A DNA stretch of 64,000 nt from Linnemannia hyalina (lineage: Eukaryota; Mortierellomycota; Mortierellomycetes; Mortierellales; Mortierellaceae). This document shows positions 48,507 to 64,000 of this stretch, one piece after another. Positions within the stretch are counted from its first letter, which is position 1; each line of letters begins with the position of its first letter. The stretch lies in NCBI GenBank assembly GCA_019671135.1, contig JAHRHY010000002.1:3735501-3799500 (forward strand). Reading direction: 5' to 3'. The notes beneath the pieces were generated by a model. It made no database searches, had not been told where the DNA came from, and worked only from the letters and a program-made list of their open reading frames with translations. A program made the position numbers and the translations under genes.

Positions 48507-49100
48507 TTATCTAAAGCTACTCTGATCGGAGGTTCAACTGTTGCACCTTCCCCTTTTAAAAAACGATCCCCTGGTCCTTTTTGAACGCGTCAACTAGGTC
48601 GCGGCAGTTCTCCAGGTTGGCGACGGGCTCCCACGTTTGGTCCTCCCGTCCGTACCCTTTCCATGACACAAGGAACTGGTGTTGCCGTCGGTATTTCCTG
48701 TAACGCAAAATGGACTCGACCTCGTATTCTTCATTGCCCTCGATGACAACTGGTGGTGGTGGTGCTAATGTTCGGCGGCCAAATGCAAGTGGTGACTCGA
48801 TGTGATGGCGGAAGAGGTCGACGTGGAAGACATTGTGGATGTTGTAGGAGGGCGGTAGGTCGACTAGAAAAGTGACTGGTGATCGCTGCTCCAGCAATGT
48901 AAAGGGTCCGATGAAGCGAGGTTTGAGTTTATCCGAGCTGAGTCCACTGTCGGCTGGTATGGTGATGTTCTCTGCACTAAGGAGGATCTTGTCGCCGACC
49001 TTGTAGTCGTGGTCGCGTCTTCTCTTGTCGGCCTGTTCCTTCTGATGATCCTGGGCTCGTTGTAGTGCGTCTTGTGCGAAAAGTAGTGCTGTCGACTGTT
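48507..49100 (-). pseudogene. Integrase C-terminus and chromodomain of another Gypsy family
   Basis: On the minus strand a frame reads QKEQADKRRRDHDYKVGDKI (the integrase C-terminal GPY-like region) and FIGPFTLLEQ, and ends with a chromodomain (VESILRYRKYRRQHQFLVSW..QTWEPVANLENC). The 5' part is missing. At about 49,098-49,100 it is joined to the 3' end of a DDE transposase gene. On its left lies the TCTAT target site, so the chromovirus inserted next to or within its 3' flank. Confidence 0.85.
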
Positions 49101-49246
49101 GATGTTGATGTTGATGAGGACACACCAATGGATCAAGCAGTAATAATGCAACCCGGCCTTTCCATTGAGCTTAGAAGTACGAATCGACAAATGGATGTTA
49201 ATGGTAATCTGTAGACTTATTGCAGGTTTTTAAAAGAATAGACATA
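49101..49246 (+). pseudogene. 3' end of a DDE transposase gene (locus copy A)
   Basis: Bases 49,101-49,246 match 62,260-62,436 of locus copy B: the codons for DEDTPMD..MQPGLSIEL and the AT-rich trailer with TTTTTAAAAG. Twelve or so residues present in B (DQYSD) are missing here, and the upstream gene body has been replaced by the Gypsy fragment. The trailer is cut after ATA (49,244-49,246) by the 6.3-kb element. Confidence 0.85.
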
Positions 49247-49697
49247 GGAGGCCATCCATGTTCGGCTCCACCAACCATAGACTACAGTATAAAAATATCT
49301 GTCAACACCTATTAAAACAGTGTGTTCCTTGAGAGTACAACAAATCTCATCAGCTTTTTCCTTCCACCAGTCTCCATTTTCTACATTCACCACCACTACT
49401 TTGTAACATCATCTACTTTAGCTGAGAAAGCCTTGGACATGATCATCTCATATTGGATCCTGGATATTACAGATAGTAATTTCCTTTCCAATATGAGATG
49501 ATCATGTCCAAGGCTTTCTCAGCTAAAGTAGATGATGTTACAAAGTAGTGGTGGTGAATGTAGAAAATGGAGACTGGTGGAAGGAAAAAGCTGATGAGAT
49601 TTGTTGTACTCTCAAGGAACACACTGTTTTAATAGGTGTTGACAGATATTTTTATACTGTAGTCTATGGTTGGTGGAGCCGAACATGGATGGCCTCC
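49247..49697. repeat. Foldback palindrome at the left end of the 6.3-kb element
   Basis: Two 211-bp arms (49,247-49,457 and 49,487-49,697) are inverted copies around a 29-bp spacer. Both ends read GGAGGCCATCC/GGATGGCCTCC. A truncated copy exists alone at 17.15 kb, so the foldback also occurs apart from the large element. Confidence 0.95.
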
Positions 49698-50202
49698 TAG
49701 TAGAGCATTTGTTTTCGTGTTTATATAATTAGCGATGGTTACTAATATCTCCTTTTCATGATATATCCTATGTGTATATCCAATATAGCACTCGTGATAC
49801 TGGTGATGATGTAGTGGTAGTTTTAAAAAAAAGTTGGATCCCGATTTTTTTAAAAAGTAGCATAGTGGCTTTAACAAACATTGGTTGTTGGAAAGAAAGG
49901 GTAGCTGATACGTTTTTAATGGCGTTATTGCTACACTTTCTCAACAATATTTGACATTCGACATTTGACATTCGGCATTCGATTCGACAGCTGACAAACT
50001 GTAGTTATTACCACAGTTATGATATTTGATATGAACGCATTTTGGATGACCTCGTGATTATTGTGATGTTTAATTTTAATACATTCTTGATAAACTCGTA
50101 AGTATTACAATGTTTAATGTTGACATACTTTAGGTAAGCCCACGATTTGCACGACGTTTAATATTATTACACTTTGGTTAACTTACAATTGTTATAGCAT
50201 TT
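49698..50202. repeat. Inner part of the left TIR (505 bp)
   Basis: From TAGTAGAGC to the base before ATTGTTATAC, this matches the inverted sequence 54,583-55,087. It includes TTTTTTAAAAA-type motifs (about 49,843) and GACATTCGACATTTGACATT repeats (49,953-49,985). Confidence 0.93.
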
Positions 50203-50279
50203 ATTGTTATACAGATTGTAGGTAATTACGACAATGGTAAAAACAGAGATATCGCAATTAGACCATGCATTGTGGGTAG

Positions 50280-51480
50280 TTGTAGATATAACAATTATAT
50301 CGTTTAAAATAGACGTTCTTAAAACACATCACATATTTTATAATGCAAATGGCTATTATATTACAACGTTTCTATTGCATTTTGTGTGATAACAAGATAG
50401 AAAAAATGTGTTGTTAATAGAGTAATTATATCGTAAAAAATAGACGTTTCTTAAAACACATCACATATTTCGTGATGCAAATGGGTATGAACATTGTAAC
50501 ATTTCTATCGCATTTTGTGTGATAATAAGGTAGAGAAAATGTGTTGTTAACAGAGTAATCATGTCGTTTAAAATAGACGTTTCTTAAAACGTATCACATA
50601 TTTCGTGATGCAAATGGGTATGAACATTGTAACATTTCTATCGCATTTTGTATGATAATAAGGTAGAGAAAATGTGTTGTTTAAAGAGCAATTATGTCGT
50701 TAAAAATAGACGTTTCTTAAAACACATCACATATTTCGTGATGCAAATGGGTATGAACATTGTAACATTTCTATCGCATTTTGTATAATAACAAGACAGA
50801 AAAATGTATTGTTAACAGAGTAATTATGTCGTTTAAAATAGACGTTTCTTAAAACACATCACATATTTCGTGATGCAAATGGGTATGAACATCGTGGCGT
50901 TTCTATCGCATTTTGTGTGATAATAAGGTAGAGAAAATGTGTTGTTAATAGAGTAATCATGTCGTTTAAAATAGACGTTTCTTAAAACGTATCACATATT
51001 TCGTGATGCAAATGGGTATGAACATTGTAACATTTCTATCGCATTTTGTATAATAACAAGACAGAAAAATGTATTGTTAACAGAGTAATTATGTCGTTTA
51101 AAATAGACGTTTCTTAAAACGTATCACATATTTCGTGATGCAAATGGGTATGAACATCGTGGCGTTTCTATCGCATTTTGTGTGATAATAAGGTAGAGAA
51201 AATGTGTTGTTAACAGAGTAATTATGTCGTTAAAAATAGACGTTTCTTAAAACACATCACATATTTCGTGATGCAAATGGGTATGAACATTGTAACATTT
51301 CTATCGCATTTTGTGTGATAACAAGACAGAAAAAAGAAGTTGTTAACAGAATAATTATGTCGTTTAAAATAGACGTTTCTTAAAACGTATCCCATATTTC
51401 GTGATGCAAATGGGTATGAACATTGTGACATTTCTATCGCATTTTGTGTGATAACAAGACAGAAAAAAGAAGTTGTATAA
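50280..51480. repeat. Array of about nine 132-bp tandem repeats
   Basis: Units start with AGACGTTTCTTAAAAC at roughly 50,309, 50,441, 50,572, 50,706, 50,837, 50,967, 51,102, 51,235 and 51,370, so the period is 131-135 bp. They are AT-rich and similar to each other, with variable sites (CACATCAC or CGTATCAC; GTAACATTT or GTGGCGTTT) in changing combinations. There is no coding frame across units. The array sits between the left TIR and the Rep-like gene, the place where iterons or an origin would be expected. Confidence 0.93.
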
Positions 51481-51487
51481 ATAAAAG
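51476..51487 (+). promoter_or_regulatory. TATA-type promoter motif (TATAAATAAAAG)
   Basis: The motif follows the last tandem repeat and precedes the 81-aa and Rep-like frames. It closely matches TATAAATAAAGGA upstream of the Cys/His protein genes at 55,922 and 62,855. Confidence 0.5.
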
Positions 51488-51845
51488 TTATGTAGACTTA
51501 GGAAATGTCTATAAAATATCGTTTGTATACTTTGGTGGGTGGGAGAAAATTGGTGGTTACAAAAAAGTGGTCGCAAAACCGCCATGATGAAGTACTTTAA
51601 CATCTGGTTGAGGGGCTTGTTCCCCTATCGTGTTTATCGTTAATAGTTTTAAAAAATCCAAAAGTGTGTTATATAAAGGAATTTTTGCTAATAGTTTACG
51701 TTTAAATTCTCTTGAAATAGATGATATATGCATTATATTTCTATCCAATCTATCATGGAATATGAGATAACTTCTTTTATAGTGCAACAAATCTAAAAGT
51801 GTATTGTAGTATAGGCATTCTTCCTAATGGTTTACTAGTTATGCA

Positions 51846-52091
51846 ATGCCAACACTTAAAGAAATTAAGCAAATAATAGCCATTTATATACATGAGCATC
51901 ATATGCATCCTACAATGGCAATGTACTTGAGAGCTGTTTTGTTACGTGGTAAGTCTCAGCAAGAACTTAATGGTATGTCAAAGGAAGAACTGTGGGGATT
52001 GGTAGACTTTTTTGCACCAGATTTACAAAAACATATGCATACAATTGGTGCATTATCATGGTCAGCACACCGAAAATTTGCTTCAGAGTAA
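51846..52091 (+). CDS. Small unrecognised protein (81 aa) upstream of the Rep-like gene
   Basis: The frame starts at ATG 51,846 (MPTLKEIKQIIAIYIHE) and ends 55 bases before the Rep-like ATG. The sequence is mostly helical, with a segment (LRGKSQQELNGMSKEELWGL) reminiscent of short SAP-like helix pairs, which is too weak to call. A TTTTTAAAAAG motif directly follows its stop. It may be the first gene of a pair with Rep. Confidence 0.5.
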   Translation: MPTLKEIKQIIAIYIHEHHMHPTMAMYLRAVLLRGKSQQELNGMSKEELWGLVDFFAPDLQKHMHTIGALSWSAHRKFASE

Positions 52092-52146
52092 AGTGGTTTT
52101 TAAAAAGTTTGTAGTACATATCTCTGCAAACAGTAAGCTATTCAAC

Positions 52147-53799
52147 ATGTCCGCTATACCTAAATCCATTAACAAGGCGCTGAACTCATATGCCCATCTT
52201 ATCTCTGATGTGGGCAAAGAGATTGCATTGCCTGGCAAACCAAAGACTGGCTGGAAAAAGTACTCAGAGATATTCTGCGATAGTTTAATACTCTGGGGAT
52301 TGCACAACCGGGCTGACCTTGTTGACGAGCAACGCAAGAACACCACTGCCAATATTTGCGAAGCTTTTAAAGACCTTGATATTAGCCACTCCATGGTTAA
52401 AGTTGTTAACGAGGGTTATATCAAACCCAATAGTTTTTTTAGCTCTGAAATGCTACGAAAACATAGAAAAAAGTTTAGAAGTTCGGCCTTATACCATGCA
52501 GGATATTTCAGCATTAAGGTAACGCTCAATGAACTGGAGGCCATCTCTTTAATTTCCGAGTTACCACCAATATTTCATGAGCTTGAGGTTGACTATATTA
52601 TCCTCCATGATATAGACATTGCTACGGATTGTAGATATGTTACAAGCCGTCCAATTCTTCAGCAATACCTTCAAGAGAGATTTGGAGAAGATTTGGATAT
52701 TGCCGACGATCTCCATAAGGTTGGTAACCACTGTCTCTCTTGGTTTGGAGTCACCGAAAAAGACCAAAAGGTCCGTTGTAAGGTTTATAACAAACTTGTA
52801 CAGATGTTGGAGAGTGCTGAAGTAAAAATGTCGTTGGGTTCAAGAATGGAGAATTTTGTTATGGATGTGGATAAGGACCTACATAAGAGACTTCGAAAGG
52901 CGAAGAAAACAGGTCTAACAAGACTTGAAATTACCTTTTATGGACAGGAGATATATACATTCTCCTATTATAAAGGAGTCTTGGATGCCATAAAGGAAGA
53001 GATCCAAGAATGTCCCACGTTCTGCGTAAAATACAAGGCATATTGGAAGTACATAGTTGGCAATATATCATCCATGGTAGGTATTCATGTAACAATGGGT
53101 GAAAAATCGGCATTCGCATATTGCCATTGGTGGAACTCTGTTACAGGTAAGAAGTATGGTTCATATCGTAACAATGTCGAGAAAGAGGAAGCAATGACGT
53201 TGTTAGCCAACTATAGCTTCAACGATAGACCAATATACTTTTTGGAGGTTGAGATGGATGAGAATAGCATCAAGGATATTACAGTTACCAAGTACAAACG
53301 GCCTGACGAATGTACAGCAATAACACTTGTTGCAGGAGCACATAAAGGCATGTACCCATACATTTACGATGATGATGTTTTACAATTCGAGGATATGGGT
53401 ATAGTGGAGGTAGATAATGTAAAGATCCAATGGCCTGAGAGAAGAATCCGCAAAGGTGCACCACCAATTGTTGATATTCATCTAGAAAACATGAATGGTG
53501 AGAATTTTATACAAGTCCATGATAGAGCTATCCACAAAGCAACATATAAAGCTGGATATAATGTACTTGAAATAAATACCAGCTATACAGTCATAGCAAT
53601 TGCAATGGATATGTATCACAACAAAGAGTATATTTTTGCAACATTGTCCAATGGTATTAAAGTACGATGTGGACTTAGTTTAGAAACAAAGATCGTTGCA
53701 TGGCTGGAAGAATATCCCGATGGCCAAGTTCCGTATATGAATTTCACCACATTGCAATGCAGAACTGTTCGCGGGTTCAAGGATATTTATATACGTTAA
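52147..53799 (+). CDS. Rolling-circle replication initiator-like protein (Rep_trans-like, 550 aa)
   Basis: I place the start at ATG 52,147 (MSAIPKSINKALNSY), about 50 bases behind a TTTTTAAAAAG motif; the frame is open for 45 codons further upstream. Three motifs occur in the order and spacing of plasmid/phage replication initiators of the pT181 Rep_trans type: an acidic strand LHDIDIATDC (about 152-161), SWFGVTEKDQKVRCKVYNK (about 197-215) with the Y-N-K that carries or neighbours the nicking tyrosine in that family, and LTRLEITFYG (about 257-266), the R-L-E strand. The C-terminal 280 residues (AGAHKGMYPYIYDDD.. WLEEYPDGQVPY) are unknown. No intron or lesion is visible. If correct it would nick one strand at an origin, perhaps in the neighbouring 132-bp array. 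This is a motif-level inference, not a database match. Confidence 0.6.
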   Translation: MSAIPKSINKALNSYAHLISDVGKEIALPGKPKTGWKKYSEIFCDSLILWGLHNRADLVDEQRKNTTANICEAFKDLDISHSMVKVVNEGYIKPNSFFSSEMLRKHRKKFRSSALYHAGYFSIKVTLNELEAISLISELPPIFHELEVDYIILHDIDIATDCRYVTSRPILQQYLQERFGEDLDIADDLHKVGNHCLSWFGVTEKDQKVRCKVYNKLVQMLESAEVKMSLGSRMENFVMDVDKDLHKRLRKAKKTGLTRLEITFYGQEIYTFSYYKGVLDAIKEEIQECPTFCVKYKAYWKYIVGNISSMVGIHVTMGEKSAFAYCHWWNSVTGKKYGSYRNNVEKEEAMTLLANYSFNDRPIYFLEVEMDENSIKDITVTKYKRPDECTAITLVAGAHKGMYPYIYDDDVLQFEDMGIVEVDNVKIQWPERRIRKGAPPIVDIHLENMNGENFIQVHDRAIHKATYKAGYNVLEINTSYTVIAIAMDMYHNKEYIFATLSNGIKVRCGLSLETKIVAWLEEYPDGQVPYMNFTTLQCRTVRGFKDIYIR

Positions 53800-53836
53800 G
53801 AATGCTAATAGATAGTTTTTAAAAATTACAATGGGC

Positions 53837-54574
53837 TTACTTTGCACGCTTATATGATGGAATCTCCACTCCTGCAAAAATTTCACGTCGCTTATTAGTC
53901 GGCTCTTCCCGTTGTTTATCCTCGACATCCATAGTAGTCATCTCCAAGAACTGCTCTTGTAACTTTGTTATATCTCGTGCATCATGCAACATCTCATCCA
54001 CTGGAATATAATCCAAGATTTGTTCCATTGCACCATTGGCATATGGAAAGTCGAAGCCATCTCTAATCCAGGCACTATGAATGGGTTCCAGATTTAACTG
54101 CAGTAGTGCCACCATCTTCTTGATGTTCATAAGTAAGAGACACAATCGCAATTGCAAATTATATGTTTCTATCTTGGTTACCAACACTGGTTTCCTATTG
54201 TTGTGCTTCTCAAAGGTTGCTCCAAGATCTCCAAATTCGGCTTCTATCTGAGAGCGGAAACTGCCGAAAATCTTATTGTAGTTAGTTTCATCTTGTGCAA
54301 GATCTTTCCCACGGCTTTTGCGAATTGGATAACAAAAGTTTTTCTTGCTCATGCTTGTTTCTTCCACTATTTTCTTAATGTATTGTGTGTACCCTCCATC
54401 CAATGCAATACAATCTAGCTCGTGGATGTGCTTATGTATCTTCATACCAACCAACATAGTACCATCGTTGTTATCCTTGCAAGGTAGCGATTTAGAGACT
54501 AGTATTGCCATGCCATTGCAATCGACACACACTTGCGTTCTTACACCAGATTTCTTCAGCTTGTAAGAGTACAT
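53837..54574 (-). pseudogene. N-terminally truncated DDE (Harbinger/IS5-like) transposase
   Basis: The 245-aa frame faces the Rep-like gene, with only 37 bases between their stops. It matches residues about 205-440 of the complete transposase at 61,075-62,358 at roughly 60 percent: MYSYKLKKSGVRTQV, CIALDGGY (second catalytic Asp), GSFRSQIEAEF (catalytic Glu) and NNRKPVLV. The region with the first Asp (LDGHD in the complete protein) is absent, because homology ends just inside the border of the right TIR at 54,583. An exon further away cannot be excluded, but only TIR sequence follows. It is probably inactive. Confidence 0.85.
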
Positions 54575-54582
54575 GTCTGAGC

Positions 54583-55087
54583 AAATGCTATAACAATTGT
54601 AAGTTAACCAAAGTGTAATAATATTAAACGTCGTGCAAATCGTGGGCTTACCTAAAGTATGTCAACATTAAACATTGTAATACTTACGAGTTTATCAAGA
54701 ATGTATTAAAATTAAACATCACAATAATCACGAGGTCATCCAAAATGCGTTCATATCAAATATCATAACTGTGGTAATAACTACAGTTTGTCAGCTGTCG
54801 AATCGAATGCCGAATGTCAAATGTCGAATGTCAAATATTGTTGAGAAAGTGTAGCAATAACGCCATTAAAAACGTATCAGCTACCCTTTCTTTCCAACAA
54901 CCAATGTTTGTTAAAGCCACTATGCTACTTTTTAAAAAAATCGGGATCCAACTTTTTTTTAAAACTACCACTACATCATCACCAGTATCACGAGTGCTAT
55001 ATTGGATATACACATAGGATATATCATGAAAAGGAGATATTAGTAACCATCGCTAATTATATAAACACGAAAACAAATGCTCTACTA
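54583..55087. repeat. Inner part of the right TIR
   Basis: Inverted copy of 49,698-50,202. It ends GCTCTACTA before the right foldback. Confidence 0.93.
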
Positions 55088-55538
55088 GGAGGCCATCCAT
55101 GTTCGGCTCCACCAACCATAGACTACAGTATAAAAATATCTGTCAACACCTATTAAAACAGTGTGTTCCTTGAGAGTACAACAAATCTCATCAGCTTTTT
55201 CCTTCCACCAGTCTCCATTTTCTACATTCACCACCACTACTTTGTAACATCATCTACTTTAGCTGAGAAAGCCTTGGACATGATCATCTCATATTGGAAA
55301 GGAAATTACTATCTGTAATATCCAGGATCCAATATGAGATGATCATGTCCAAGGCTTTCTCAGCTAAAGTAGATGATGTTACAAAGTAGTGGTGGTGAAT
55401 GTAGAAAATGGAGACTGGTGGAAGGAAAAAGCTGATGAGATTTGTTGTACTCTCAAGGAACACACTGTTTTAATAGGTGTTGACAGATATTTTTATACTG
55501 TAGTCTATGGTTGGTGGAGCCGAACATGGATGGCCTCC
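55088..55538. repeat. Foldback palindrome at the right end of the 6.3-kb element
   Basis: Same 451-bp foldback as at the left end, in inverted orientation including its asymmetric 29-bp centre. The symmetry of the whole element is therefore exact through both ends. Confidence 0.95.
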
Positions 55539-56140
55539 ATACATGGCCTATTTAGTCAGCTTTAAGATACGGTATTAACTGCCAAGACGCTAATATGCAC
55601 CGGTATCTATTATTAAAAGCCATGGTATTATTGTAGTAGATCGGATGCTATTCTATGCTATTCTACAGCATTCCTTTTTATTTAACAAAGAGGATAAACA
55701 CATGTACAAACCTACGTCATAAAATAATACTACATTCTTAACCATTTTTAAACCCCGTCTTTAATGCCAAGCAGTCTTAATAAGCAAGATCTACGTCATA
55801 CGAGGAACACTACATTATTAACCACTTAGATGCCTTTTTAAAACTCTTTTGTTACTAAGCGCCAAGCAGTGCTAATAAGCAAGCGCTATTAATGTCCATT
55901 GTGGCAGTGTTCCTGAATTAGTATAAATAAAGGAGTCCACTTCCCTCTTGCTTAATCTTTATCTAGTAACCAACCAACAATTATCCATATCTATACAACC
56001 ATCCATACCTATACAACCATCTTTTATTGCAATTCTTTATATCAGTGTACTAAGCAGCTGCAATCTACCACACATAAACTGAAAACTCATTCACACCCAC
56101 CATACCACAAGTACAATCCATATTATTCATATCCAAAAAC
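55539..56140 (+). promoter_or_regulatory. Promoter region of the Cys/His protein gene, copy A
   Basis: TATAAATA at 55,922-55,929 lies about 210 bases before the ATG, followed by AACCAACCAAC and repeated CCATACCTATACAACCATC leader motifs. The whole block 55,539-56,140 is repeated at 62,434-63,078 (copy B), with small indels. Two TTTTTAAA motifs lie at about 55,745 and 55,829. Confidence 0.6.
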
Positions 56141-58402
56141 ATGAAGTACGTTCAGCTTACAATCGAGCTCATCACCAAGGCCTTTGAGACATTCTCCTCT
56201 AAGAAGGGAGTGGAGTTTAACAAGAAAGATGCAAATAAGATCTTTAAGGCGCTTGATGAGGATGAGGAAGTAGAGAGATACTACTTTTGTGGAGAAAAGT
56301 GCACCAAGTCCAAGCGCAAATGCATGAAGGAAGTTGATGATGAAGGCATGCATTGTTATGTCCACGATCCTGCGCGCAAGTGTCAAGGCACAACTATTAA
56401 GGGTGCTAATTGTGGTAGTGTAGCCAAACTTGGTCAAACATACTGTGGACGTCATCAAGATCAAGATAGAGGTTATATAAAACGTAGTAACAACAACGCA
56501 CCTGTCGACAAGCGTACCAAGTCTTCCAAGGCTTTAAAGAAGACACATACTTCTAAGTTTGTGTCTTCCGATGACGATATGACTTCCGAGGATGAAGAAC
56601 CAAAGAAGCGAAAGAGAAACAAGCAGGAGTCATCGGATGAAGAGCCGTCCGATGATGATGATGAAGAAGATATAATTGCCGTCTCCTTTCCGTTGAGTCC
56701 AAAGGTAGTTGACATAACGTCCAAGAAAAATGTACCACTCGCTAATACATGTATATGGACGCGTTATGCAACTAATCCAGCTTTCCTGTATGCAAAAAGC
56801 TTTACTGTAAATGGCAAGTACATTATTAGGCTAAAGGAAAAGAATCTCTACATTGCATTGTGTCCACCTAAGCTCATGGGCAAGAATCTCCCTGCGCCAG
56901 AAATATCTGAGAAAGAGGCACGCATATTGGCCAAGATGGGTCTTCAAGAGGCAACTTCAGCAGATGTAGAAAAAATAGAAGAGTCTTCTGCTGATGAGAA
57001 TTCTGACGATGATACAGATGATGGTGATACGTCTGATAATGCTGACTCTGACGATGATTTCTCTAAAGATAAAGACTCTGATGATGGCAAGTCCAATAAC
57101 AGACCTGATGTAGAATCTGGAGATGATACCTCTAAGGATAACCCTGATGAAAAACTATCTCATAAAAAGCCATCTAAGGATGATGAGAAGAAGACTTCTC
57201 GAAAGAAAAGGCATTCAGAGATGCCCAAAAATGCAGAGCCATCTTCTAATGTAGATGTTTCTAAGGATGAAAAAGATGAACACACATTTGCACTGGCCAC
57301 AACGGTGCGTAACATTAGATCAGAGAAAGACATACCACTTGCAAAGGATGGAGGATGGATGGTTCATCCTAATAACGACATGCTTGAGTATGCAACTAAC
57401 TTTACGATGAAGGCTAAGTACATTGTCAAGCTATGTGGAAAGAATACATACGTTGGCCTGTTTACGCTTGATCATCTGCGTGGCGGTGGTGATGTTCCAG
57501 AGATGGATATCTTGGAACGCTCCATGCTTAGCAAGATGAAACTTCAAGAAATGTCTGATGAAGAGAGAAAGATGCTTTTCAACGAGGAGGTCGAAGTAGA
57601 AGAGGAACTACCAGTGGAAGGACCGACAGATATATCCAAGATGAAATGGAAAAGGTTTCACAAGCAGCAATTGGAGTATTCCAAGAATGTACTTGTAAAT
57701 GGAAAGCACATTCTCAAGATCCGCAAGCAAAACATTGTAGTTGGCTTGGTGACTGATGACCACATTAGTGCAGAGAATGTCGACTATGATAATCTTAACC
57801 AAAAGGAAAAAGAAAAGATCTTCGCTATGGGCTTTAAGCCACAATGGTCTAAGGATAGGTCGACAGAGAAAGGTGAACCGGTAGAAAAAATAGATGATGA
57901 GGTGCAAGAGTCGAATATTAAGGAAACTTTAGATGAACTTGTAGAAAAAGTAGATGATGAGGTGCAAGAGTCGGATGTTAAGAAAACTCTAGAAGATGGT
58001 GGACCTATGGAAAGCGAAAATGTGAATGCCTCAAGTGTTTACACTACAAAAGACCATCATGATTTTCTGAAGGCAATGGGAGAAGTATATAGCAAAATAA
58101 CAGCTATCGAAGAAGAACTCCGCGAGGAATACGTTTCGGCAGATGGTAATGCAGAAGAAAAAGAACTAATTTTTCACCTAGGTTTGTTGGAGAAAGATTA
58201 TTCCAACTACGAAACATGGCACATGGATAAGTTTGGTTCCCGCGAACCACATTCCGATATATTATGTAAGTTTGCAAAAGAAGGATCTAACAACAGAAAA
58301 ACCATAGTGCAAAGTGTATTAGATAGTATTCAAGCCAAAGAGAAAAGTACGATGGAAGAAAAGAAGCCTCTTGAAGTAACATTTGAGACCGCAGAAGAGT
58401 AG
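56141..58402 (+). CDS. Acidic protein with Cys/His knuckles and a three-fold repeated module (753 aa)
   Basis: One uninterrupted frame starts at ATG 56,141 (MKYVQLTIELITKAFETFSS). Residues about 45-110 hold two zinc-knuckle-like units: CGEKCTKSKRKC..HCYVH and CQGTTIKGANC..YCGRH. The second follows a C-x8-C-x8-C-x2-H layout often seen in short proteins of large DNA viruses (general impression). Basic and acidic low-complexity stretches follow. A module of about 45-70 residues is repeated three times, near 197 (FLYAKSFTVNGKYIIRLKEK), 397 (LEYATNFTMKAKYIVKLCGK) and 500 (LEYSKNVLVNGKHILKIRKQ), each followed by an N/Y-[IV]-x-[IV]-x-L strand. The C-terminus has two direct repeats (VEKIDDEVQES) and a helical end. 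Nucleic-acid or chromatin binding is plausible; the function is unknown. Its neighbour is a DDE transposase gene. Confidence 0.7.
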   Translation: MKYVQLTIELITKAFETFSSKKGVEFNKKDANKIFKALDEDEEVERYYFCGEKCTKSKRKCMKEVDDEGMHCYVHDPARKCQGTTIKGANCGSVAKLGQTYCGRHQDQDRGYIKRSNNNAPVDKRTKSSKALKKTHTSKFVSSDDDMTSEDEEPKKRKRNKQESSDEEPSDDDDEEDIIAVSFPLSPKVVDITSKKNVPLANTCIWTRYATNPAFLYAKSFTVNGKYIIRLKEKNLYIALCPPKLMGKNLPAPEISEKEARILAKMGLQEATSADVEKIEESSADENSDDDTDDGDTSDNADSDDDFSKDKDSDDGKSNNRPDVESGDDTSKDNPDEKLSHKKPSKDDEKKTSRKKRHSEMPKNAEPSSNVDVSKDEKDEHTFALATTVRNIRSEKDIPLAKDGGWMVHPNNDMLEYATNFTMKAKYIVKLCGKNTYVGLFTLDHLRGGGDVPEMDILERSMLSKMKLQEMSDEERKMLFNEEVEVEEELPVEGPTDISKMKWKRFHKQQLEYSKNVLVNGKHILKIRKQNIVVGLVTDDHISAENVDYDNLNQKEKEKIFAMGFKPQWSKDRSTEKGEPVEKIDDEVQESNIKETLDELVEKVDDEVQESDVKKTLEDGGPMESENVNASSVYTTKDHHDFLKAMGEVYSKITAIEEELREEYVSADGNAEEKELIFHLGLLEKDYSNYETWHMDKFGSREPHSDILCKFAKEGSNNRKTIVQSVLDSIQAKEKSTMEEKKPLEVTFETAEE

Positions 58403-60940: not shown

Positions 60941-61074
60941 TACCGAATAAAATATAAAAATATATTTGTATTCTCAACTATGTGCTTGCTGTATGATAGA
61001 TACCATCCTACATGCTGTTGTGTATACAGTTAAGTATAAGCCTTTTTAAAAAATTGTTATTGTTGGTTAACGTC

Positions 61075-62358
61075 ATGACAATCCAATACATAAATATTAT
61101 TATGGATCTAACAAAACACTTCCAACAACTGCTTGATGACCATTGGACTTTCCTCAACGCTGGATGGCCAACAATTACACCACGTAATAATCATCGTACT
61201 GTAAGCAAGGAAATTGGGTATATGCCAGAAATAAAAGAAACCCTAAATCGACGCCTTGGTCCTATTCCAGTGTACTTCTTTCTTGTTGACATCTGGCCAA
61301 AGGTTAAGTATCCTGGTCCATACAAAGAAGTGGAGAAAGGTCTTTTAATGCTCTATCATCTTGTCAAAGGACTGTCTATGGAAGCAATGGAACCACACAT
61401 GCCAAAAAGTAGTTTTCATGCAATGCACTCTGTGTTTTATAAGAAAGAATATACTTTGCACAACAAGTACATCACCAACTGTATTGCAACAATGTTCTCC
61501 ACAATTAAAATACGCCTATTGTCTGCAAAGGAAAAGAATCCTCCATTATTTAAGCATGTTACATTGCATCTTGATGGTCATGATACAAGAGCAACATACA
61601 AAGGTGAGAGCAGTGCTGATATGTACTCTTACAAGCTGAAAAAGTCAGGATTACGCACACAGGTAGCAATGGATTGTAATGGCATGGCTTTATTTGTCTC
61701 CAAATCTGCATCTTGCAAGAACAATGCTGATGGAACAATGCTGCTAACGATGAAGTTGGACAAGAGAGTGCATGAGATGGATTGCATTGCTCTCGATGGA
61801 GGGTATCCACAGTTCTTAAGGAGGCTTATAGATGAGTCTGATATTCTTAGAGTCCAAAATTTCGCTCATCCATACCGTAAACAGAAGAACAAGGAACTTA
61901 CACAGGAAGAAGCGTTATACAATACCACCTTTGGTAGTTTCCGCTCGCAGATGGAATCTCTGTTTGCAGACCTTGGTTCCACATTTGAGAAACACAACAA
62001 CCGTACTCCTGTGTTGGTGGATAAGAAACAAACATATAATTTGCAGTTGAAGTTATCTTTGTTACTCTTAAACATGAAAAAGATGGTTGCTTTGTTGAAG
62101 ATTTCTGCAGAACCAATTCATACAGCTTGGCTTCGCGAAGGATTCGAGTATCCGACAACAGAGAACGACGTTGAGCAACCAATGGGATATGTTGATGTTG
62201 GTGCGCTAGTGGAGGATGGAAATACAATGGCACAACTCCAGAACAAATTTCTTGGTATTAATCTTCATGGTGATGTTGATGAGGACCAGTACTCTGATGA
62301 GGACACACCAATGGATCCACCAGTAATACTGCAACCCGGCCTTTCCATTGCGCTTTGA
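61075..62358 (+). CDS. DDE (Harbinger/IS5-like) transposase, complete
   Basis: The frame is open from ATG 61,012. ATG 61,075 or 61,102 is more likely because a CTTTTTAAAAAA motif lies at 61,038-61,048, comparable to the Rep-like gene. About 430-448 residues. Catalytic blocks of the DDE_Tnp_4 type: LHLDGHD (about residue 185 from 61,012), CIALDGGY (about 260) and GSFRSQMESLF with the Glu (about 312), followed by a Leu-rich helix (LSLLLLNMKKMVALL). The N-terminal 150 residues carry a helix-turn-helix-like part (VEKGLLMLYHLVKGLSMEAM). No lesion is seen. It should cut and join DNA ends. It lies upstream of the Cys/His gene in both locus copies and is intact only here. It is a candidate helper for GGAGGCC-ended elements (inference). 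Confidence 0.85.
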   Translation: MTIQYINIIMDLTKHFQQLLDDHWTFLNAGWPTITPRNNHRTVSKEIGYMPEIKETLNRRLGPIPVYFFLVDIWPKVKYPGPYKEVEKGLLMLYHLVKGLSMEAMEPHMPKSSFHAMHSVFYKKEYTLHNKYITNCIATMFSTIKIRLLSAKEKNPPLFKHVTLHLDGHDTRATYKGESSADMYSYKLKKSGLRTQVAMDCNGMALFVSKSASCKNNADGTMLLTMKLDKRVHEMDCIALDGGYPQFLRRLIDESDILRVQNFAHPYRKQKNKELTQEEALYNTTFGSFRSQMESLFADLGSTFEKHNNRTPVLVDKKQTYNLQLKLSLLLLNMKKMVALLKISAEPIHTAWLREGFEYPTTENDVEQPMGYVDVGALVEDGNTMAQLQNKFLGINLHGDVDEDQYSDEDTPMDPPVILQPGLSIAL

Positions 62359-63078
62359 GGTACGTAGTACGAAGCGACAAATGGATGTTAATGGTAATTT
62401 GTAGACTTATTGCAGGTTTTTAAAAGAATAGACATACATAGCCTATTTAGTCAGCGTTGAGATACGGTATTAACTGCCTAGACGCTAATATGCACCGGTA
62501 TCTATTATTAAAAGTCATGGTATTATTGTAGTAGATCGGATGCTATTCTATGCTATTCTACAACATTCCTTTTTATTTAACAAAGAGGATAAACACATGT
62601 ACAAACCTACGTCATAAAAGAATACATAAACACATGTACAAACCTACGTCATAAAAGAATACTACATTCTTAACCATTTTTAAACCCCGTCTTTAACGCC
62701 AAGCAGTCTTAATAAGCAAGATCTACGTCATACGAGGAACACTACGTTATTAACCACTTAGATGCCTTTTTAAAACTCTTTTGTTACTAAGCGCCAAGCA
62801 GTGTTAATAAGCAAGCGCTATTAATATCCAGTGTGGCAGTGTCCCATGAATTAGTATAAATAAAGGACTCCACTTCCCTCTTGCTTAATCTTTATCTTAT
62901 CTAGTAACCAACCAACCATTATCCATATCTATACAACCATCCATACCTATACAACCATCTTTTATTGCAATTCTTTATATCAGTGTACTAAGCAGCTGCA
63001 ATCTACCACACATAAACTGAAAAGTCATTCACACCCACCATATCACAAGTACAATCTATATCGTTCATATCCAAAAAC
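62359..63078 (+). promoter_or_regulatory. Promoter region of copy B, with the empty target site
   Basis: ATA at 62,434-62,436 is the unoccupied counterpart of the 6.3-kb insertion. TATAAATA lies at 62,855-62,862. A segment of about 34 bases (AAACACATGTACAAACCTAC...) is tandemly duplicated at about 62,592-62,660 relative to copy A. The leader contains the same CCATACCTATACAACCATC motifs. Confidence 0.6.
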
Positions 63079-64000
63079 ATGCAGTACGTTCAGCTTACAA
63101 TCGAGCTCATCACCAAGGCCTTCGAGACATTTTCTTCTAAGAAGGGAGTGGAGTTTACCAAGAAAGATGCAAATAAGATCTTTAAGGCGCTTGATGAGGA
63201 TGAGGGAGTAGAGAGATACTACTTTTGTGGTGCAAAGTGCACCAAGTCCAAGCGCAAATGCATGAAGGAAGTTGATGATGAAGGCATGCATTGTTATGTC
63301 CACGATCCTGCGCGCAAGTGTCAAGGCACAACCATTAAGGGCGCTAATTGTGGTAGTGTAGCCAAACTTGGTGAAACATACTGTGGACGTCATCGAGAGC
63401 AGCATAAAGGTCATATGAAAAGCAGTAACAATAAGGCACCTGCCAACAAGCGTACCAAGTCTTCCAAGATAACCAAGAAGACACATACTCCTGAGTTTGT
63501 CCCTTCAGATGATGATATGACTTCCGAGGATGAAGAACCAAAGAAGCGAAAGAGAAACAAGCAGGAGTCATCGGATGAGGAGCCGTCCGATGATGATGAA
63601 GAAGATATAATTGCCGTCTCCTTTCCGTTGAGTCCAAAGGTAGTTGACATAACGTCCAAGAAAAATGTACCACTCGCTAATACAGGCATATGGATGCGTT
63701 ATGCAACTAATCCAGCTTTCCTGTATGCAAAAAACTATACTGTAAATGGCAAGTACATTATTAAGCTGAAGGAAAAGGACCTCTACATTGTATTGTGTCC
63801 ACCTGAGCTCATGGGGAAAAATCTTCCTGTACCGAAATTATCTGACAAAGAGGTACGTATATTACAAAAGATGGGACTCCAAGAGGCAACTCCTGCTGAT
63901 GTAGAAAAAATAGAAGAGTCTTCTGCTGATGAGAATTCTGACGATGATACAGATGATGGTGATACGTCTGATGATGCTGGCTCTGACGATGATTCCCCTG
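63079..64000 (+). CDS. Cys/His acidic protein, copy B (runs off the window)
   Basis: The frame starts at ATG 63,079 (MQYVQLTIELITKAFETFSS) and is still open at 64,000. It is a close paralogue of the 753-aa protein at 56,141-58,402. All knuckle cysteines and histidines are kept and the first repeated module is present (FLYAKNYTVNGKYIIKLKEK). Differences include CGAKC for CGEKC and a divergent linker (PANKRTKSSKITKKTHTPEF). The DNA similarity covers promoter and coding sequence alike, so it is a segmental duplicate. Confidence 0.75.
   Translation, partial: MQYVQLTIELITKAFETFSSKKGVEFTKKDANKIFKALDEDEGVERYYFCGAKCTKSKRKCMKEVDDEGMHCYVHDPARKCQGTTIKGANCGSVAKLGETYCGRHREQHKGHMKSSNNKAPANKRTKSSKITKKTHTPEFVPSDDDMTSEDEEPKKRKRNKQESSDEEPSDDDEEDIIAVSFPLSPKVVDITSKKNVPLANTGIWMRYATNPAFLYAKNYTVNGKYIIKLKEKDLYIVLCPPELMGKNLPVPKLSDKEVRILQKMGLQEATPADVEKIEESSADENSDDDTDDGDTSDDAGSDDDSP

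Follow-up and report, generated by a model that had tools for sequence, protein, structure and literature searches.

Why should a transposon with a DDE transposase carry, between its inverted repeats, a gene for a Rep-like protein? This question is raised by the element at 49247..55538 of the window, the 64,000-nucleotide stretch of Linnemannia hyalina contig JAHRHY010000002.1 that was analyzed here. The element is confirmed as a genuine transposon copy, one that bears a deletion and belongs to a multicopy transposon of a Mucoromycota fungus. Its 550-amino-acid (aa) protein is, judged from conserved residues, very probably a Rep_trans-like nicking enzyme. Excision and insertion by the DDE transposase, combined with Rep_trans-like nicking that replicates the element DNA, is the overall reading that we find reasonably likely; nicking is well supported by the sequence, and replication is what we infer beyond it.

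Conserved residues and predicted fold of the Rep_trans-like protein

Asp157, Asp161, Tyr214, Lys216, Gln219, Arg259, and Glu261 are invariant in all 75 aligned sequences, and Asp45 is found in 73 of them, the other two having gaps (alignment A1, leaving out the 16 shorter of 90 matches; alignment A3 comprises 67 hand-picked homologues). These are the catalytic positions of pT181/RepSTK1-type initiators. In RepDE, the catalytic residues are the ligands Asp46, Asp142, and Glu214, together with Tyr191, Lys193, Glu196/Gln184, Arg212, and Asp146 (PMC4797284, in part). The features shared with Rep_trans/MOBT enzymes (RepD/RepDE, RepSTK1, NicK of ICEBs1, and RelSt3) are three separated acidic metal ligands, an R-x-E motif, a predicted and possibly TBP-like core, and a catalytic Tyr on a strand followed by Lys at +2 and Glu/Gln at +5. 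The fungal protein differs from them in its motifs: Asp155 (70/75) takes the place of the motif I Arg (R140), Lys212 (75/75) that of the motif III Arg (R189), and motif II, T-x-Y-x-G, is replaced by Cys196 (75/75) and Ser198 (70/75). It also differs in standing beside a DDE transposase, in giving no PF02486 match, and in its extra C-terminal half (300-550), which has no fold assignment.

The preliminary description of this locus held that a predicted structure without a Rep/HUH-like core would refute it. The predicted core appears to be of the Rep_trans/TBP-like fold class: RepSTK1 is its best structural match, with a modest Z-score tied with that of TBP, and in the whole-protein comparison TBP entries score as high as or higher than Rep_trans entries, with modest TM-scores. 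Tyr214 lies on a predicted β-strand, and the predicted strand and helix setting of the putative catalytic residues is as in Rep_trans enzymes.

A comparison with Rep_trans and HUH profiles had also been proposed; Rep_trans-type residues were found, and neither a PF02486 match nor support for HUH was. The PF02486 profile, which did find the B. subtilis control, gave no match to the fungal genome at E ≤ 1 or to the proteins of the element. A PDB sequence search gave one chance-level match and a PDB profile search none, while PHROGs and NCBIfam gave nothing significant for the 550-aa protein. In a viral structure library, the matches are weak and mostly to unnamed or giant-virus proteins, with an Inoviridae Rep at rank 12 (E 4e-3). 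An HUH/Helitron reading was dropped: the alignment has no invariant His (His154 and His327 are near-invariant but far apart), and the structure matches listed include no HUH nuclease, an IS200 transposase appearing only at E 0.098 and probability 0.14.

The core form of a motif expression matches 126 of 147 Rep homologues and 6 of 100,000 shuffled sequences, and its full form 110 and 3, respectively; among 120 DDE homologues there is no match. This is weak support, the expression having been composed after the protein had been seen. Named homologues come from Mortierella, Haplosporangium, Podila, Linnemannia, Actinomortierella, Gryganskiella, and Apophysomyces, with further ones from Rhizomucor and Benjaminiella. 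Taken by themselves, these names make a Mortierella-type host very probable. Four distant relatives (P0087-P0090; 694-822 aa, 22-26% identity) may lie outside Mucoromycota; two of them, on 233- and 380-kilobase (kb) contigs, keep the catalytic residues.

Pairing with the transposase and selection

The partial DDE frame of the window matches PF13359 (DDE_Tnp_4) at 28.7 bits against a cut-off of 24.8, and in the C3 copy the transposase frame is complete (419 aa, 31.1 bits). Genome counts given here and below are lower bounds, because only part of the candidates was scored: 40 of 127 for the ends, 79 of 182 for Rep, 150 of 274 for DDE, and 4 of 239 for a 317-base-pair (bp) repeat. At least 29 type-A Rep genes are full-length and free of stops. 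All 29 are convergent with a DDE frame, and the gap between the Rep and DDE protein matches is 43 bp in every one. The median dN/dS is 0.16 (17 distinct type-A genes; 94 non-independent pairs with dS > 0.02). The Rep-like gene is under purifying selection and is a working part of the element. The DDE transposon with a Rep_trans-like second protein, as first described, is supported, and neither refuting condition named there came true, judged by the apparent fold class of the predicted core and the 29/29 pairing.

That the Rep-like gene might be a common host gene, named earlier as a possible objection, was considered and rejected: every full-length stop-free type-A gene adjoins a transposase and 0/29 lie outside a Rep-DDE pair, a count that does not cover truncated or unscored candidates. 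Neither the small frames nor the Rep-like proteins gave a Myb/SANT match in domain searches.

A second family in the same genome, with 38-39% Rep identity, has at least 32 entries, of which 30 are stop-free. The one unit examined (L089, G000:C16:773300-778950) contains a 90-aa frame, Rep, and a convergent DDE gene (PF13359, 46 bits), and forms a head-to-tail tandem with a period of 4849 bp and 99.9% identity over an 802-bp overlap. Within C16:765295-784949 the next tandem spacing is 4436, shorter by 413, which is the offset of two 279-bp direct repeats within the unit. The 90-aa frame and the 81-aa frame of the window element, which occupy the same place, are weakly similar over 25 residues (E 0.001, in a single comparison). 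At C33 and C12, the second family has a repeat of ~317 bp that starts GGGAATCG and is inverted at its other side. Telomere-like repeats (CCCTAAAAA-type) are seen at C33:500-800 (L090), ~220 bp from the outermost 317-bp repeat of a second-family copy.

In Haplosporangium bisporale, the Rep and DDE proteins carry consecutive locus tags. Among 90 Rep entries, 11 are on a contig of exactly the same size as a DDE entry, compared with 1-7 (mean 2.75) for 16 shifted sizes; these coincidences give weak support, a shift of -1 alone having given 7. A Mantel test comparing Rep with DDE distances (r 0.93, 1/20,000 permutations, 12 pairs) is also weak support, since its signal is mostly a two-clade split and 10 of the 12 pairs, one of them ambiguous, were chosen by equal contig size.

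Layout of the window element and its target site

The locus is on a 3.8-Mb contig, ~23 kb away from one of its ends, in a genome of 51.5 Mb and 50 contigs. Its features are as follows.

49244..49246, no strand: left ATA, copy 1 of the 3-bp target duplication (flank comparison and empty site)
49247..50202, + strand: left inverted repeat, 956 bp as kept in the window copy, 100% complementary to 54583-55538
49247..49697, + strand: left terminal palindrome, 451 bp, with arms 49247-49457 and 49487-49697 and asymmetric loop 49458-49486
49247..51699, + strand: counterpart of the ~2.4-kb inverted repeat as a whole; C3, C11, C44, C8, and C37 have its inner part again, in inverted form (92-98%), on the far side of the transposase
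50293..51468, + strand: 133-bp tandem array, 8.9 copies, with an inverted array at the opposite end of the five fuller copies
51846..52091, + strand: 81-aa frame upstream of the Rep-like gene (open reading frame list)
52147..53799, + strand: putative Rep_trans-like tyrosine endonuclease, 550 aa, with putative Tyr214 and putative metal ligands D45, D157, and E261
53837..54574, - strand: 3′ portion of a DDE_Tnp_4 transposase gene, cut short in the window copy where the right repeat has its inner edge
54583..55538, - strand: right inverted repeat, 956 bp, its inner edge being the deletion breakpoint
55088..55538, - strand: right terminal palindrome, 451 bp (self-comparison of the window)
55539..55541, no strand: right ATA, copy 2 of the target duplication (flank comparison and empty site)
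62434..62436, no strand: unoccupied ATA target (empty site) in a paralogous locus (comparison with the element flanks)

The layout given in the preliminary description is confirmed: the 956-bp repeats ending in GGAGGCC/GGCCTCC are fully complementary, the flanks and the paralogous ATA bear out the duplication and the empty site, and both the 81-aa frame and the truncated transposase are present. The tandem array is also there, with a measured period of 133 rather than 132 bp. The junctions read ...GAC-ATA|GGAGGCC on the left and GGCCTCC|ATA-CATGG on the right, and the empty site of the paralogue is GACATACAT. The left flank of the element matches another DDE gene at its 3′ end and downstream of it; the paralogue of that gene is at 61012-62358. 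The Rep-like gene is contained in a 595-codon frame (52012-53799), in which the ATG at 52147 gives 550 aa.

In the five fuller copies examined, inverted repeats of ~2.4 kb flank the genes, in the order 451-bp palindrome, subterminal stretch, and 133-bp array. The left sequence of the window up to 51699 recurs inverted beyond the transposase in these copies; the fuller repeat is therefore ~2.4 kb long. The 956-bp repeat is what a deletion left of it, and the window copy retains neither the array on the right nor the 5′ half of the transposase.

Several neighboring genes were also observed. At 48556-49128 is the 3′ end of a gene for a retroelement polyprotein with a chromodomain, which gave Chromo and Tf2-1-like SH3 matches. 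The related DDE gene at 61012-62358 (55% to the truncated DDE) is followed at 63079-64000 by a gene for an acidic Cys-rich protein of ~750 aa with no Pfam match, and a gene for the same Cys-rich protein (753 aa) lies to the right of the element at 56141-58402. This DDE gene and the Cys-rich gene may represent another transposon family with a different partner.

Copies across the genome

The 956-bp arm has at least 41 full-length matches in the genome, corresponding to at least 40 distinct end palindromes, one being common to two copies. Eleven pairs of ends were picked by position and orientation and their outer flanks compared. In 8 of the 11, the 3-bp duplications are identical and consist of A/T only (ATA, AAA, TTT, and TTA), so that further copies with duplications were indeed found; of the TWA-like duplications expected earlier, the 3-bp length stands and strict TWA does not. 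Pairs C11, C13b, and C48 have no matching duplication; the left palindrome of C13b is common to a neighboring copy. C19, C20, and C48, which span 13-19 kb, probably contain nested insertions. Because of the 41 or more full-length arm matches and the matching duplications at 8 of 11 paired ends, the element is not a product of chance.

By hand count, the nearest contig end is no more than 100 kb away for 21 of the 29 intact type-A copies, against at most ~19% expected at random; two of the 21 are on C29 and C37, contigs that are themselves shorter than 100 kb.

Terminal palindromes

The 451-bp terminal palindromes, absent from the preliminary description, lie inside the element at the start of each 956-bp arm and consist of 211-bp arms and a 29-bp loop. 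The loop is inverted in 9 of the 40 distinct palindromes of the genome. Inspection of 26 hairpins, picked so as to include all nine inverted ones, gave 16 in the window orientation and one (the right end of C49) that the script left unassigned; loop variants of one base, flagged "?" in the script output, were read by eye. In C5 and C16, the left and right ends have opposite loop orientations. The same holds for C48, though here the two ends, having no matching duplication, may come from different copies, and in C20 the loop is inverted at both ends. One palindrome (C13:787598-788048) is common to two head-to-tail copies.

Inside the 29-bp loop (49458-49486) is a small stem-loop, ATTAC-AGATA-GTAAT, which is the same in the 18 loops compared, with one variable base outside it. 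This stem-loop is conceivable as a nick site, and that the nick site is the terminal palindrome is possible, though less likely than not. As a general origin, the terminal hairpin was rejected, none being seen in the stretches of the second family that were examined.

Proposed mechanism and alternatives

The GGAGGCC ends and 3-bp A/T duplications observed are those that the DDE_Tnp_4 transposase would give on cutting out and inserting the element. The Rep-like enzyme would nick the DNA of the element within the long inverted repeats, and perhaps at its terminal palindromes too: one DNA strand would be attacked by Tyr214, with Asp45, Asp157, and Glu261 holding a metal; the conservation and setting of these residues are described above. 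The nick could then prime copying of the element, whether excised or resident, by a rolling circle or a rolling hairpin, and copying would put more copies on hand for insertion. Such a working mode would be like that of ICEBs1, in which a Rep_trans relaxase replicates the excised element, minus conjugation. That the enzyme acts on element DNA is probable, and as to its amplifying the element, we lean slightly towards it. Rolling-hairpin or circular replication would leave inverted loops and a shared palindrome. It should be weighed against this that recombination between identical arms could also produce these loop and sharing patterns.

The chief rival to replication is an accessory nickase or resolvase, which would nick or resolve the palindromic ends or aid target choice or processing, with copies gained by cut-and-paste and gap repair. 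We consider it possible, though rather unlikely. It would fit the fixed pairing with the transposase and the palindromic ends, which would require special processing, and PHIS-group DDE transposons commonly have a second protein (Myb/SANT in Nuwa; TET/JBP plus a third protein in fungal families; PMC12730594, in part). Yet the conserved residues are those of replication-start or strand-transfer enzymes, and head-to-tail tandems occur in both families.

Two other explanations are far less probable. Capture of a former plasmid or virus between transposon ends, offered in the preliminary description, would make the Rep-like gene passive cargo, and Rep_trans enzymes are indeed known from plasmids, phages, and integrative and conjugative elements (ICEs). 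This is disfavored, and very improbable, because the same DDE pairing recurs in the second family and in H. bisporale and because the gene is under purifying selection (dN/dS 0.16; 59 stop-free genes, being 29 full-length type A and 30 of 32 divergent ones). Gene order is moreover shared by two families at 39% Rep identity, with 29/29 pairing in type A; no capsid or other viral gene was seen in the element, and no relatives were confirmed in viral contigs (0/34 pattern matches) or prokaryote genomes (0/87). A DNA-binding protein that has TBP-like topology without nuclease activity would account for the absence of a PF02486 match, the modest TM-scores, and the TBP entries that equal or exceed Rep_trans ones over the whole protein. 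We hold this to be highly unlikely: Rep_trans structures have TBP topology too (PMC4797284, in part), the catalytic-type positions keep the same order and setting throughout, and the full motif occurs in just 3 of 100,000 shuffles, though it was devised after the protein had been seen.

Relation to known systems and significance

Replitrons are eukaryotic transposons with a Rep-type tyrosine nuclease; Replitrons and Helitrons have the HUH fold and are not known to combine a DDE transposase with inverted repeats and a target duplication. The recombinase of ICEBs1-type elements is not known to be of the DDE type. Helitrons, as eukaryotic transposons with a Rep-type tyrosine nuclease, share that trait with the fungal element (PMC12730594, in part). 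ICEBs1-type elements, which are bacterial and conjugative, share the logic of an integration and excision enzyme joined to a Rep_trans enzyme, the relaxase NicK driving rolling-circle replication of the excised element (PMC4595007, in part). The PHIS group (PIF/Harbinger-ISL2EU-Spy) is likened to the fungal element by its DDE_Tnp_4 transposase, 3-bp duplications (Harbinger proper), and second protein; the fungal element differs in that this protein is Rep_trans-like, not Myb/SANT, and in having inverted repeats that are very long and palindromic and contain arrays. Rep-Arvir (DUF7845), from archaeal viruses and plasmids, is likewise a Rep_trans relative known by structure and active-site residues, not by sequence (PMC13107129, in part); compared by description, it differs in being archaeal and having a central winged helix-turn-helix.

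Rep_trans enzymes appear confined to bacteria according to the portions covered of a 2026 paper that reports the first archaeal relatives (PMC13107129), and those listed in the corresponding parts of a 2017 review are bacterial (PMC5714925). In the parts covered of a 2025 survey of fungal DNA transposons, PHIS partners are Myb/SANT and TET/JBP, and none has a Rep (PMC12730594). Among the matches listed from the open-licence literature, with Repbase outside its scope, there was no eukaryotic Rep_trans enzyme and no Mortierella element of this kind. DDE transposons with a second protein are already known; the novelty, should it stand, would lie in meeting this enzyme class in a eukaryote and joined to a DDE transposase. 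We go further with some reserve, as a possibility a little short of even: that the family represents a class of mobile DNA new among eukaryotes, a hybrid of nuclear transposon and replicon moved by DDE and replicated, as in ICEBs1, by a Rep_trans-type initiator through palindromic repeats, with inverted loops and terminus-sharing head-to-tail units as replication footprints.

The proposal is testable, since the residues are named, stop-free copies exist, and the predicted products are nicked ends, circles, and shared-palindrome junctions. If true, this conserved relative, which is under selection and of which at least 29 intact copies adjoin a fungal DDE transposase, would bring the Rep_trans class into eukaryotes. 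These observations suggest a family of soil-fungus transposons in which the element may also copy its own DNA, and would provide a concrete case for asking whether a cut-and-paste transposon also replicates its own DNA.
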